From Phaeodactylum tricornutum CCAP 1055/1 (Eukaryota > Bacillariophyta > Bacillariophyceae > Surirellales > Neidiaceae), in contig NC_011687.1 of NCBI RefSeq assembly GCF_000150955.2, positions 496,001-560,000 on the forward strand: a stretch of 64,000 bases of DNA, in the 5' to 3' direction. Made by a program: the position numbers and the translations under genes. Positions within the stretch are counted from its first letter, which is position 1, and every line of letters starts with the position of its first letter. Under the pieces are notes generated by a model that was given only the letters and a program-made list of their open reading frames with translations, ran no database searches and had not been told where the DNA came from. Below are positions 39,076 through 45,278 of this stretch, one piece after another.

Positions 39076-42000
39076 TTAGAAGCGCCCACGAGTATTCAAG
39101 CTCTCGTTGTCGCCCTGGTCACTGTTGAAATAATTCCCACTATTCCCTCCAACAAAAAAGCCCAGCTTTGGTCCTCGACGATCTTCCTTCTGCTGCGAAT
39201 AGAACGTCGCGCGACTGCCGCCGTATTGTGAATCGTAAGCACTGTCACCACCAACACTGCTGAGGTCGTCGGCACCGTAGTTTGGCAAAGGCGCAAACGT
39301 GGGAATGGGCAACCCCCCAGCAGGATCGCTGCCTTCACGATCATTCGGCAAACCGCCAGTCTCGTAGCGCGGATCGAAGCGAGAATCCGACTGGCGATCT
39401 TTGCCTCGGCCATGACCTGACGAGCGAAAGCCCGGGGCGTTGTGTGGACGATCATTGCGGCGGTCTTCCCAACGACCGTCCCAACCTCCTCGTGCTAGAG
39501 CCGTGAAGGCGTATCGGGAATCGCTAGCCAAACTGCGTTTGGGACGGGCAAACGTCATGTAGCTGGATTGCAAATTGTTGAGAGGACCTTCCACCAAACA
39601 TTCGTACTCCTTAAAGTGCAATAAAAGTGCCGCCCATAGAGGGTTCTTGCTCAAAACACGAGGATTTCCGAAAAGAATGACACCAAGTCGGGCACGAGTT
39701 AGGGCGACATTCAAACGACGCGGATCGGAGAGGAATCCGATACCTTGTGTCTCGCTCGAACGAACACACGAAACCAAAATGTAGTCTTTCTCACGTCCTT
39801 GAAAAGCATCCACCGAAGCCACTTCGATTGCTTCGTACAGAGCACTGGCTAAAAGCCCGGCGCGACGCATGTATTCGAAAACGTACTTCTTTTGGCCATC
39901 ATAGGGCGTGATGACACCAATCTGTGCCGGGGTCACCCCCATGCGCAGTAAATGGGTCACTACCTTTTCCACGTACGACGCCTCGGTACGATTCAAGTAC
40001 GATGTACCCGAGGCCGAGATTTCTTCCATGCCCGTAATGGAATAAAAGAACATGGGACGATCGGGAACTGGCCAAGGAAAGTCTTCCTTGCCGGTGAAAC
40101 CGGGTAGGCTCAAAAGTTGACGGTCCGCTTCCGTCACACCGTTCTGTAGACTGCCTTCGTAGAACATGTTGGAAGGAAACTCCGACAAAGCCGGGTGCAT
40201 ACGATACTGTACCTGCAAGCGGATTGGGCGGTTACCGATCAGCACGAGACGTTCAAAGAGACTCTGCGTCAAGCCGGCCTTGGCGGCAACCTTGTTCATG
40301 ACGACTGGTCCCAGCTGACAGTGATCTCCAACAAAGACCACTTGCTTGGCACCCATGGCGATCGGAATCAAAGCTTCCGCCTCGATAGCTTGCGTGGCCT
40401 CGTCAATGAGTACTTGGCGGAATCGGAAATTTTTGAGACGTGGATCACCGGCACCGACACAGGTGCAGCAAATGACATCAGCGGCTTGCAAAATTTCGCG
40501 TTCCGTGCGAGACCGCAAGGATCGGTATTTTTTCTGATCGCGCTCGGTCAATTCGCCGATTTCGTCCTTGAGTCGCTGAAGTTTCTGAAATTCGTCGCCC
40601 GCCGCCAAGGGTGTCATGACGTGCAAGCACAAGTGATCGACGGAACTGGACGTGGCTTCGCGAGTTTTGGAGGCGAGTCGGACGACGCGCAATCCCGTGG
40701 CAGCAATCTTCTCCGTCAATTGATCGACGGCCACGTTGGATGGTGCCGTGACCAGTACCTGTCCCATGTTCTGTTTGGTGAGGTGGTACACGAGTGTGGC
40801 ACTGGTCACGGTTTTGCCCGTCCCGGGTGGTCCCTGAATGAGACTGAGTGGACGCTGCAGGACGGCTTGGACGGCGTCCTTTTGTGATTCGTTCAAGGCA
40901 GGTAATCCGGGGACACTGAACTCTTCGTCCTTATGGGGTACTTTGGCCGACGCAATTTTCTGCTCTTCCACTTGGTGGCCCAGTATCTTGTGGTAGATGT
41001 AACCCGTAACGGAGGTATCGTCCACGGCAAAGGTTTTAAGTGCGTTTTGCATGCGATCGTAACTAGTACTTTTCCAAATATACTCAACGACGAAGTCATC
41101 CGTGAGATTCTCTGGCACGGCTCCACTCGAGCGTAACTCCAGCTCCACTTCACTGTCAATGATATCCTTGACGTATCCTACCCCGGCCCATGATTTCCCG
41201 TAAAGGAAGGACGCCCCAGATCCGAGTTTGAGACGCAATTCATCCCCGACTACGATGCGGGATTGTTCGGCCTGCAAGCGATGGAACGAAAACGTGATTA
41301 CGTGTTTGCCGGCCAATGACTTGTCCCATCGAATCGAAATGGATTCTTCTGTCAAGGATTCCTTCATACTGCGGTCGTAGTCGGCTTCTACCTTGACGAG
41401 CGGGGCGAGGACGTTTTGGTAATGGTAGCCGTCATCGTATCGTTCCGAGGTTGGTGTCATTTCTTCCTCCGGCGCCGCGTCGTCCCGGTGCAAATCGATA
41501 TATTTAGCGTCGTCGCGTCCCGTCTTCCAGAGTTCTTCTAAACGCGTCATTTGTGCGGTGGAAATATCGCGTGCGCGGAGGAGGAGCTTATCCGAAGGCA
41601 CTTGCAGGAGCCACGGCAGGAATTTACGATCCTGAATGAGGGGATGCCAAGAGGCCAATTCCCAATCCATATCTTTCAGTGCCGGAACGGTTTCGACACA
41701 CACGCGACAGAGTAGAACAACGACGGTACTGGACGACGCGGGGACGAAGCCTAGGACAAAGACGTTTTTGGAAGCGCAGTTGTAGCACTCGAGCACGGTA
41801 TCTCCGAGAGGCGACTGCGGGTGCAATTGGACTTGATTCGATCGGGACCGGACCAGATGGTGTACGAGATGACTCCCACCACTGCCCACAGCGGCGTTGC
41901 AGAGCCATTTGTTGGTTTCGACGCAACGCGCCACGCAGGCGGGATTGTGAATGCCGCAGTAGCGACAGGCGTACGCCGGTAAGCTGTCTTCGTCGTAGTG

Positions 42001-42183
42001 ATCGTGTGCGTACAAGTGATCCGTCCCGGTGGGATCGTCTTCGTCGTCGTCTTCACTGAGGCTATCGACATCCACGTCGTCGGGGATTGCGGAGATCTCT
42101 TCGTCGTCATCGTCTTCGTCGACACTGGTGTCCTCGTTGAGCTGATGGACGGGATCGTCCTCATGGCTACTAGCGTCGCTCAT
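39076..42183 (-). CDS. UPF1: UPF1/RENT1 RNA helicase (nonsense-mediated decay)
   Basis: A 1,035-residue intronless protein. UPF1 is the ATP-driven SF1 helicase at the core of nonsense-mediated mRNA decay. After an acidic N-terminus comes the Cys/His-rich domain that binds UPF2 (CRYCGIHNPACVARC, then CNAAVGSGGSHLVHHLV, CYNCASKNVFVLG and LLCRVC; residues ~70-170). The helicase core has the Q motif LNESQKDAVQAVL, Walker A GPPGTGKT (451-458), APSNVAVDQL, the DEAT box in VLIDEATQA, VFVGDHCQLGPVV, LQVQYRMHP, VASVDAFQGREKDYI and LNVALTRARLG. The C-terminal ~150 residues are Gly/Arg/Asp-rich with some SQ sites, as usual for the phosphorylated tail. The start lies 531 bp from the divergent EEP nuclease gene, another RNA enzyme. 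Confidence 0.96.
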   Translation of the reverse strand: MSDASSHEDDPVHQLNEDTSVDEDDDDEEISAIPDDVDVDSLSEDDDEDDPTGTDHLYAHDHYDEDSLPAYACRYCGIHNPACVARCVETNKWLCNAAVGSGGSHLVHHLVRSRSNQVQLHPQSPLGDTVLECYNCASKNVFVLGFVPASSSTVVVLLCRVCVETVPALKDMDWELASWHPLIQDRKFLPWLLQVPSDKLLLRARDISTAQMTRLEELWKTGRDDAKYIDLHRDDAAPEEEMTPTSERYDDGYHYQNVLAPLVKVEADYDRSMKESLTEESISIRWDKSLAGKHVITFSFHRLQAEQSRIVVGDELRLKLGSGASFLYGKSWAGVGYVKDIIDSEVELELRSSGAVPENLTDDFVVEYIWKSTSYDRMQNALKTFAVDDTSVTGYIYHKILGHQVEEQKIASAKVPHKDEEFSVPGLPALNESQKDAVQAVLQRPLSLIQGPPGTGKTVTSATLVYHLTKQNMGQVLVTAPSNVAVDQLTEKIAATGLRVVRLASKTREATSSSVDHLCLHVMTPLAAGDEFQKLQRLKDEIGELTERDQKKYRSLRSRTEREILQAADVICCTCVGAGDPRLKNFRFRQVLIDEATQAIEAEALIPIAMGAKQVVFVGDHCQLGPVVMNKVAAKAGLTQSLFERLVLIGNRPIRLQVQYRMHPALSEFPSNMFYEGSLQNGVTEADRQLLSLPGFTGKEDFPWPVPDRPMFFYSITGMEEISASGTSYLNRTEASYVEKVVTHLLRMGVTPAQIGVITPYDGQKKYVFEYMRRAGLLASALYEAIEVASVDAFQGREKDYILVSCVRSSETQGIGFLSDPRRLNVALTRARLGVILFGNPRVLSKNPLWAALLLHFKEYECLVEGPLNNLQSSYMTFARPKRSLASDSRYAFTALARGGWDGRWEDRRNDRPHNAPGFRSSGHGRGKDRQSDSRFDPRYETGGLPNDREGSDPAGGLPIPTFAPLPNYGADDLSSVGGDSAYDSQYGGSRATFYSQQKEDRRGPKLGFFVGGNSGNYFNSDQGDNESLNTRGRF

Positions 42184-42714
42184 ACCAAAAGTAACAACTC
42201 CGTGAATCGGCTGTCAGTGTCTGTTCGTAATACTGAAGATCTGTGGGATTGGAATGGGAGATTGTGTGGGTTTGGTCAGGGGGTTGGGACGGAACCCGAC
42301 GGGGGGCACTCGTCGTTGTGCTTTTTCTTCCTGTTGAGTGTGATAGCTGAAATTTGTTTGGATTTTGTTGTCGTTGCCGGTGCCAGTGTGGGCAGTGACT
42401 GACGGACAAGGACGGACAGTGTTACGGTCACACGGCACGAGGAGGTTGGGGGACAACGGCACTTGTGTGCATACCGGTTGTTGCCAGACGTCCCGAATCC
42501 GAGCTGGGCGTTTCAAATAGGGGTAGGGATGAATCGTCACGAGTGCCAAAAGGGTCGGACTCTGAAATCCCCTCTCACATACACACATTCCATTGCATCT
42601 CCTGACTGTCACCGTCCCTTTTATATCAATTCATCTCGAGAGTTAGTCGGTGGGTACGTAGGTAGGTCGGTAACACCGACAACGAGCCATCCCCGGAGGT
42701 TCAACGCACACAAC
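42184..42714. promoter_or_regulatory. Divergent promoter region between UPF1 and the EEP/Mut7-C nuclease
   Basis: A 531-bp stretch between two start codons. It contains an acggacaaggacggacagtg near-repeat (about 42402-42421) and a gtgggtacgtaggtaggtcggtaac stretch in two parts near 42650-42675. The frame of the nuclease gene is open back to 42463 but lacks a convincing start there. A shared promoter is an inference. Confidence 0.3.
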
Positions 42715-45278
42715 ATGAGAAAAGCGAAAAAGAAAAAGTCGGCAGCGTCCAGAAGAAACCACGGCAAAGGCCCGCCACAGAACGCCACACAATCGTCCGT
42801 CTCCTGGATCGACGATCTAGTCTTTGCCCCAGTTCTTCCACAGAACATGGGAGACGAAGCTAAGAATACATTACACCGTACAAATGTTGGTCCCCGCACC
42901 GGTATCCACGCCATTAGCGACGACAACGCCAACAACAACAACCATACCATTTCCGTCGTGTCTTGGAACATGCTGGCGGAGGCCTACTGCAGCCCCCGTT
43001 CCCACGTCAACTTGCCCGCATCCTACCGAAAGGTTGTCTTTGATCGAACCGCACGAAGGGATCGTATATTTGCAATCCTCAAGCGCTTGGCCCAACAGCA
43101 ACAGCCCGTCATCGATGTCTTGTGTCTGCAAGAAGTCGACGTCCATCTGGACGACGCCTTGCAAAGGTGGGGGTACGCCGCTGGACGGCAAACGCCACGT
43201 ACCCGAGCTGGTGGCGGATCCGGAGGCCGTGTAGACGCTTGCGCCGTTTACGTACGCGACCATCGCTGGCAGATAGTCGCACACGAACTTGTGCGCTTGG
43301 ATGATCTCGCCACGCTCCGCTCCGCGCCGCATTCGGTCCCTGACGACCGCCGTATCGGTAACGCCAGTAATAGTGCCAGTGCTACCAGTCATCTGCAAGG
43401 TCTCCAACAGGGGTTTCTGCGTCGCAACGCCGCTCTCTTGGTACGTCTGCGGGACACTTCGGGAAGGACAGTGGTAGTAGCCAACGCGCATTTGTATTGG
43501 AATCCTGGATTTGAATACGTCAAGGTAAGGTATCGGGTGCGGGTAGTTCCTCCCGTAGACCAGTACAACAACAATATCAACATTGTCTTACCACGGATCC
43601 CTTGCTGCTTCTGCGTTCGTGGCACAATCCTTAGATGTGTCAGGCACACTACATTTTGCAGCGCGCCCGAGCCTTTCTCCAACACGCCGAGGAACCCCTC
43701 ATTTTTTGCGGGGATTTGAATTCACGACCACACGGAGCCGCTCATACCTACCTGACACAAGGATTCATCAACGCCAAACGCATAGCACCATGGTACAGCT
43801 ACGGTAAGGCAGACGAAAGCATGACAAACGATTGCGAAACAACTGATGACGGAGCATTGTACAACGAGGCAAAGGATGACGACGAACCGGTCACACACAG
43901 CGTTCTTGAGCAGACGTTTTCGGCTCTGGATCTCAACGACACGAACAACACCTCAGAACTAGCCAGTCCTCGGATTCGCTACGTACTCGACGCGACGTTG
44001 AATAAACTCTGTCGATGGCTCCGAATTCTGGGTCAAGACGCCGCGCTGGAAACAGACAAGGAGGAAAAATCTCGGACCCAATACAACGGTACAATACCCC
44101 TTTTCGATCGCGCCCGTGAGGAAAGACGTACGCTTGTGACGACTTCGACGCGACTCATGCAACGCCGGGATTGTCCCACCGGGGCTTACTGCTTGAATCC
44201 CTCTGTTTTGCCGCATTTGGAAGTCGCCTTGGTGCATCTGTTGCTGACCCATGGAGTCGTGTTGGAACCGGCTACGTTCTTGAGCCGGTGTGTGGTCTGT
44301 AACGGGAAGATCGTTAAAGTCCAGGAGAAATCTCGACAACGTCAAATTTTGGAAGGCTACGATGCTCCCGTGTTGGCGGAAGAGATGGTAGTGTACGAAT
44401 GTGACGGCTGTCAGCAAGGCTACTGGTGGTGTGATCTGCCAACGAGTTCAGCATCGAGGGTGAAAACGCAAGCCACCCGACTATTTCAAGTCTGCTTACA
44501 GGCGGGTGTTCCCATAGACGGGCGCGTTCCGGATTTGTTTGCCCACGTGAATGTGCCACAAGAACAGGAACAGGGCTGGGACTATACCCAGCCAGGCAGT
44601 GATCTGCTACGGCAAAGGCTGGACGTAATCGATTGGCTCAAGGACGAATCTCTATCTTGTCCCTTTCATTTAGAGAGTGCATACGCGATGCGAGACGAAT
44701 CTAACAATCTGGTGGGCGAAGAAATACCTTTCACCAACGTGACGGATTCATTTGTCAATACATTGGATTATATTTTCTTTGAACCCAAGCGAATGGAATT
44801 GTTGTCCCGGCTGTACGTTCCGAAAAGCTTTCGAGAATTGAACACCAAAAATATTCCGCGGGGACATTTGTTGCCGAGCGATATATGGCCAAGCGACCAC
44901 CTTGCGATTGGCGCGACGTTTGCGTTGCTTCCTAGGACCGCTTCAACGGACCCATCCGTGTCGTTAGCGGAGAGGACTGATTCTGCGGCTACACTGCAAA
45001 AGGATCATCGAGGCGTGGCACCCTTGGAGCCAGCCTCAGCGAGAGTCACCAGCGGGTCGGACATAGACAGCGAGTACTGTTTGCCGACGGGTGCTGGAGT
45101 AGGTGCGCTACCGATTCGACCCACGGCTCCAGTTTTTCCAAGGCGGCACAAGAAGCGATGCGACTGTGGGTGCGTACCGTCTATTCTATCAATGTTCGAA
45201 ATGGCGGAACTACGCAAGCAGGCACGACTGGCCAAAGCGCAGCGCACGGAATCGGGACTGAATTCTGTAGTCTCATAA
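42715..45278 (+). CDS. CCR4-type EEP nuclease with an inserted Mut7-C RNase/zinc-ribbon domain, two exons
   Basis: Exons 42715-43524 and 43635-45278 (110-bp intron, GTAAGG donor, CTTAG acceptor, phase 0) give 817 residues; the junction reads EYVK/MCQAHYIL, as in CCR4-like proteins. EEP motifs are VVSWNMLAEAYC (N85), VLCLQEVD (E140), NAHLYWNP, FCGDLNSRP (D297, N299), then only far downstream TLDYIFFEP (D648) and WPSDHLAIGATF (D691, H692). Between them, residues ~383-536 match Mut7-C: RIRYVLDATLNKLCRWLRIL, TLVTTSTRLMQRRD, and a zinc ribbon (CVVC at 489-492, CDGC at 526-529, then YWW). CCR4/Angel/nocturnin-type EEP enzymes remove poly(A) or trim RNA 3' ends; Mut7-C has a PIN-like RNase fold. The Asp usual after LLT-R in Mut7-C appears to be Ser. 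Start at MRKAKKKKSAA (basic, possibly nuclear). Confidence 0.85.

Follow-up and report, generated by a model that had tools for sequence, protein, structure and literature searches.

What does a Mut7-C (MUT7-C) domain do when it lies inside a nuclease of a different fold, and how did it come to be there? The question is raised by a gene of Phaeodactylum tricornutum CCAP 1055/1 that lies in the 64,000-nucleotide stretch analysed here (contig NC_011687.1, positions 496,001 to 560,000; the window), from whose first letter all coordinates below are counted. MUT7-C is a widespread domain. We propose that this gene encodes an active EEP phosphodiesterase in which the nested MUT7-C serves as a cis-acting RNA clamp and which derives from one old insertion, a reading that we consider probable. 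The parts of the gene on which the proposal turns are the following.

42715..45278, forward strand: CCR4-type EEP/Mut7-C gene, two exons and one intron.
43977..44426, forward strand: Mut7-C domain (residues 385-534 by Pfam) with a zinc ribbon of C489, C492, C526 and C529.
44658..44936, forward strand: C-terminal EEP segment (about residues 612-704) with FTNVT, LDYIF (D648) and PSDH (S690, D691, H692).

The nuclease is of the CCR4 type and retains its catalytic residues. Residues 83-305 match Pfam Exo_endo_phos (E 1.3e-13), and the C-terminal EEP part, which lies outside this match, aligns to CNOT6L both in the profile match, where it forms a second segment (whole-sequence E 2e-41), and in the structure comparison of the model. 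By profile CNOT6L scores above PDE12 (2.6e-33), ANGEL2 (5.7e-33) and Nocturnin (6.6e-25), whose solved chains are devoid of a Mut7-C insert and match the EEP part only; by structure CNOT6L is again the best match. PMC8216464 names a set of residues as conserved in EEP proteins in general (papers are cited by PMC number and stand here for excerpts of their text); here they correspond to N85, E140, H259, D297, N299, T637, D648, S690, D691 and H692. The alignments show this set to be intact: among 158 proteins, many of them N-terminal fragments that count as gaps, no more than two aligned rows deviate at any of these positions except T637, where the aligned relatives carry T in 144 cases and S in 12, and all ten residues are present in the three divergent relatives P0155-P0157. 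As the initial annotation had recognised, the set is split around Mut7-C, N85, E140 and D297/N299 preceding it and D648 and D691/H692 following.

The inserted segment belongs to the MUT7-C family, since it matches Pfam Mut7-C (PF01927) at E 3.3e-19 and 69.9 bits against a cut-off of 23.3, which bears out the earlier assignment of region 383-536. All four zinc-ribbon cysteines are kept in 89 of 89 aligned relatives. The insert lies in the loop that leads from the helix following GDLNS to the (L)xSAY segment, at a place occupied in CNOT6L by about 30 residues, and in structural models EEP and Mut7-C both fold with Mut7-C nested, in agreement with the earlier suggestion that an insertion after GDLNS would leave room for both. 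The modelled insert adopts the fold of the MUT-7 C-terminal domain. Of the solved folds found, this C. elegans domain is the nearest: VIA-align places 8q66_A (the MUT-7 domain) first, and most of the next matches are response-regulator receiver domains; Foldseek with the Mut7-C domain returned no match at E 0.001 and ranked 8q66_A 19th by E-value (0.29) with the top probability (0.75) among the best 50. No PIN chain occurs among the best 50 structural matches listed, and a PDB sequence search with the Mut7-C domain alone gave no match up to E 10. The notion that one protein joins an EEP nuclease to a PIN-like RNase therefore holds for the nesting of Mut7-C in a CCR4-type EEP domain but finds no support as regards a PIN-like RNase, as the closest fold found is that of MUT-7, for which the authors of the structure report no significant PIN similarity (PMC11347159).

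A six-frame scan of the genome (27,450,724 bases in 88 contigs), assessed on its best candidates, found this one Mut7-C match. The genome has eight further EEP matches, which cannot hold Mut7-C because there is only the single match to it. On our reading, L002 among them is CCR4-like and L005 PDE12-like, so that the same genome has a separate CCR4-like EEP protein without Mut7-C. Pfam up to E 1 reports only Mut7-C and Exo_endo_phos in the 817-residue protein, with no match to a DEDD 3'-5' exonuclease domain or to a leucine-rich repeat (LRR) domain. The N-terminal LRR domain, through which CCR4 contacts CAF1 (PMC8216464), distinguishes CCR4 proper (CNOT6/6L, the CCR4-NOT subunit) from the protein described here, which therefore need not belong to CCR4-NOT. 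It differs likewise from C. elegans MUT-7 and human EXD3, in which the nuclease is DEDD rather than EEP and MUT7-C is C-terminal rather than nested.

If the insert were an active PIN-type RNase, it would need the full acidic site of prokaryotic Mut7-C, the equivalents of D389, D414 and D441, and this full site is not found. The critical position and the altered end of the domain are given here.

44145..44147, forward strand: codon of Ser441, a position that is Asp in the 28 prokaryotic Mut7-C domains compared.
44445..44504, forward strand: SSASR motif and helix (residues 541-560), which replace the GSHW tail of prokaryotic Mut7-C.

At position 441 all 28 prokaryotic domains have D, whereas the 115 family domains have S (111) or A (4), these 115 being 139 proteins less 23 that did not match the cutting pattern and one dropped for length. 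The 28 prokaryotic loci came from one consensus query, with patterns that cover 389 and 414 and leave 441 free. Across all 158 rows position 441 is S in 150, A in 4, I in 1 and a gap in 3, and D or E never. The alignments thus establish the loss of a carboxylate relative to the prokaryotic homologues, and the Ser for Asp that had been noticed in the TTSTR segment proves to be a family trait. Position 389, in contrast, is always D, in the 115 family domains as in the 28 from prokaryotes and in 156 of 156 aligned rows of the wider set, while 414 is E throughout the 115 and D throughout the 28. As the divergent P0155-P0157 also carry S at 441, the change is old, and as no acidic residue aligns at 414 in these three, the site has decayed further among the divergent proteins. 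Stand-alone prokaryotic Mut7-C thus resembles the insert in the core, the zinc-ribbon cysteines and the equivalent of D389, and differs in that here D has become S/A at 441, G has become N at 393 and PTSSASR stands for the GSHW tail.

The alignments also show the architecture to be deeply conserved. Searches for relatives, each scoring only about 8000 candidates, found 187 (best 120 listed), 160 (best 120 listed) and, in the longer-protein range, 107 (all listed); as many rows are metagenome proteins or close relatives, these counts are not independent events. Both Pfam labels are carried by 99 of the 107, five have Mut7-C alone and three are without the Mut7-C label, namely P0153 and P0154, which end at the start of Mut7-C, and P0158, an EEP protein of strawberry. 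With three-part profiles, EEP-N, Mut7-C and EEP-C follow in order in 137 of 158 retrieved proteins; of the remaining 21, 15 are without EEP-N, four without EEP-C, one has EEP-N only and P0158 combines the two EEP parts but has no Mut7-C. The named relatives apart from strawberry include Fistulifera, Nitzschia, Seminavis, Mayamaea, Cylindrotheca, Cyclotella, Skeletonema, Thalassiosira and Attheya, and are, we take it, all diatoms, pennate and centric. The nested arrangement extends to P0155-P0157 at 25-32% identity to the query of the longer-protein search, P0155 and P0156 being positive with all three profiles and P0157 with two; in the latter, LDYIF and PSDH of the C-terminal EEP part are visible, split by extra sequence.

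Three observations on individual relatives may be recorded. Mayamaea pseudoterrestris has two distinct nested proteins on different contigs (P0007 and P0009, 53% and 52% identity to the query). In P0154 the linker between EEP-N and Mut7-C is several hundred residues long and unusually rich in cysteine, with many CC repeats. The model of P0150 (Thalassiosira pseudonana) lacks the middle of Mut7-C, jumping at about residue 522 to CVVCNG, which is probably a gene-model error.

Based on these data we propose that a single protein would be catalytically active as a metal-dependent phosphodiesterase within the CCR4/PDE12/ANGEL/Nocturnin group of EEP enzymes, with RNA 3' ends as its most likely substrate. 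MUT7-C would no longer cut, if it was ever able to, and by analogy with its part beside the DEDD nuclease of MUT-7 and EXD3 it would hold the substrate in cis for the EEP site. In PMC11347159, as excerpted, MUT-7 and EXD3 from which MUT7-C has been removed bind RNA about 8-fold and 6-fold less tightly, respectively, and degrade it more slowly; the prokaryotic form of the domain is termed TOPRIM-like with a zinc finger. An older sequence study had tied Mut7-C to PIN RNases (PMC1779556); the conserved acidic loss described here fits the former view rather than the latter. The altered acidic site favours RNA binding over cutting, and of the two roles once entertained for the insert, binding RNA rather than cutting it is the better half. 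Two findings weigh against a clamp: the insert is only weakly basic, and D389, E414 and E433 hardly vary within the main group.

A different division of labour, in which MUT7-C guides to RNA an end-processing or small-molecule enzyme (an ANGEL2-like 2',3'-cyclic phosphatase, a PDE12-like 2',5'-phosphodiesterase or a Nocturnin-like enzyme), is in our judgement unlikely, as CNOT6L is the best match both by profile and by structure. We regard as improbable a dual nuclease in which the nested Mut7-C would cut RNA internally and EEP would trim the new 3' end. The near invariance of the three acidic residues would suit it, as would the catalytic-residue pattern shared with PIN RNases (PMC1779556), whereas the loss of Asp at 441 in every family domain and of an acidic 414 in P0155-P0157 speaks against it; moreover, in the excerpts of PMC11347159 the isolated C-terminal domains of MUT-7 and EXD3 serve solely as negative controls and their fold was not found to resemble PIN. 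Equally little weight falls on MUT7-C as mainly a protein-docking module. C. elegans MUT-7 does bind MUT-8 through an insertion in MUT7-C, and the helix and tail that follow the zinc ribbon in this family differ from prokaryotic Mut7-C and are highly conserved, but the same excerpts describe MUT-8 docking as Caenorhabditis-specific and take RNA binding to be the probable ancestral function (PMC11347159).

Returning to the RNA clamp, its second element is a single origin. In a Mut7-C tree built without animal or plant MUT7-C, the 15 nested rows lie on one side of a branch (100/100) from 28 prokaryotic rows. In an EEP tree computed without the insert, the nested rows cluster together (91/89; 90% of 200 bootstrap trees), apart from three Mut7-C-free EEP proteins. 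In a first EEP tree, which included two very long branches (Pt_L004 and Pt_L008), the nested rows were not recovered as a group and P0155 came out next to a long branch; the second tree omits Pt_L004 and Pt_L008, and P0142 is in none of the trees. We infer a single insertion that predates the split of the sampled diatoms. A viral relative and a close prokaryotic source of Mut7-C were dismissed, since a scan of viral contigs and a prokaryotic scan with the family domain alignment confirmed none; a second prokaryotic scan with a typed consensus yielded the 28 Mut7-C loci, all of which lie outside the nested rows in the tree. That this is a pre-diatom family of 3' nucleases, in which an EEP fold captured MUT7-C once, the acidic site was lost and the domain became a cis RNA clamp, has in our estimate slightly less than an even chance.

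If this is so, the same RNA-binding module was recruited independently by 3' nucleases of two unrelated folds, DEDD (in animals) and EEP (here), which would point to RNA binding and not cleavage as the general role of eukaryotic MUT7-C. A second pairing of MUT7-C, with another 3' nuclease fold and a conserved partial loss of the putative active site, offers a natural test of the RNA-binding hypothesis and adds to diatom biology a conserved, uncharacterised candidate for RNA decay in a genetically tractable model. Whether the architecture was already catalogued has a divided answer. In databases such proteins carry automatic labels that name both domains, for example 'mRNA deadenylase 3'-5' endonuclease subunit Ccr4/uncharacterized protein with PIN domain', whereas a literature search with little subscription coverage found no published description of Mut7-C nested in EEP. 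The nesting is not described in the excerpts of PMC7408324, PMC5862402, PMC8216464, PMC1779556 or PMC11347159, and neither 'CCR4' nor 'endonuclease' occurs in the main text of the last.

The transcript structure of the gene is as follows.

42715..43524, forward strand: exon 1 (residues 1-270), which encodes the basic N-terminus and the larger part of the N-terminal EEP segment, with N85, E140 and H259.
43525..43634, forward strand: intron of 110 nucleotides, GT...AG (GTAAGG...CTTAG), frameshifting when retained.
43635..45278, forward strand: exon 2, residues 271-817 and the stop, a single open frame that encodes GDLNS, the nested Mut7-C domain and the C-terminal part of EEP.

Joining the exons yields a product of 817 residues with N85, E140, D297, N299, D648, D691 and H692 in place, so the coordinates, intron and residue numbers of the initial annotation are correct. 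The intron length is not a multiple of three and reading without splicing runs into stops; from the frame, and from relatives that are continuous across the junction (EYVK/MCQAHY), splicing at 43525-43634 appears likely. A database protein of 773 residues (P0001) is 100% identical to the spliced product from Met45 onward and is recorded for 13 contigs, none longer than 4157 bases, which would be cDNA provided that their proteins were called unspliced. The start at 42715 is favoured because a W(I/V)D motif upstream of EEP in relatives matches W31-I-D, ahead of Met45. Two genes or a wrongly joined model, as a frameshifting intron between the N-terminal half and the remainder might suggest, has a negligible chance and was rejected, since a single open frame of 547 residues spans Mut7-C and the C-terminal EEP half and the order of parts is identical in the 137 relatives.

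Beyond the nuclease a further conserved element was noted.

45159..45227, forward strand: CxCGCVPxIxS(L/M)FEMAELRKQAR, residues 779-801, conserved and modelled mostly as helix.

A simple pattern for it matched in 100 of the 153 relatives that reach PSDH, the nine long-tailed misses being mostly variants, and no second match was found in the genome. It may be a docking motif. P0155 carries it too, and this protein may, at a guess, be a near relative of the diatoms because the motif is present.

The neighbouring gene is given for context only.

39076..42183, reverse strand: UPF1 (UPF1_Zn_bind, E 4.5e-63).

It adjoins the EEP/Mut7-C gene head to head, as had been stated, the two diverging from 531 base pairs (42184-42714). 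With this arrangement and distance, UPF1 and the EEP/Mut7-C gene could share a promoter region.
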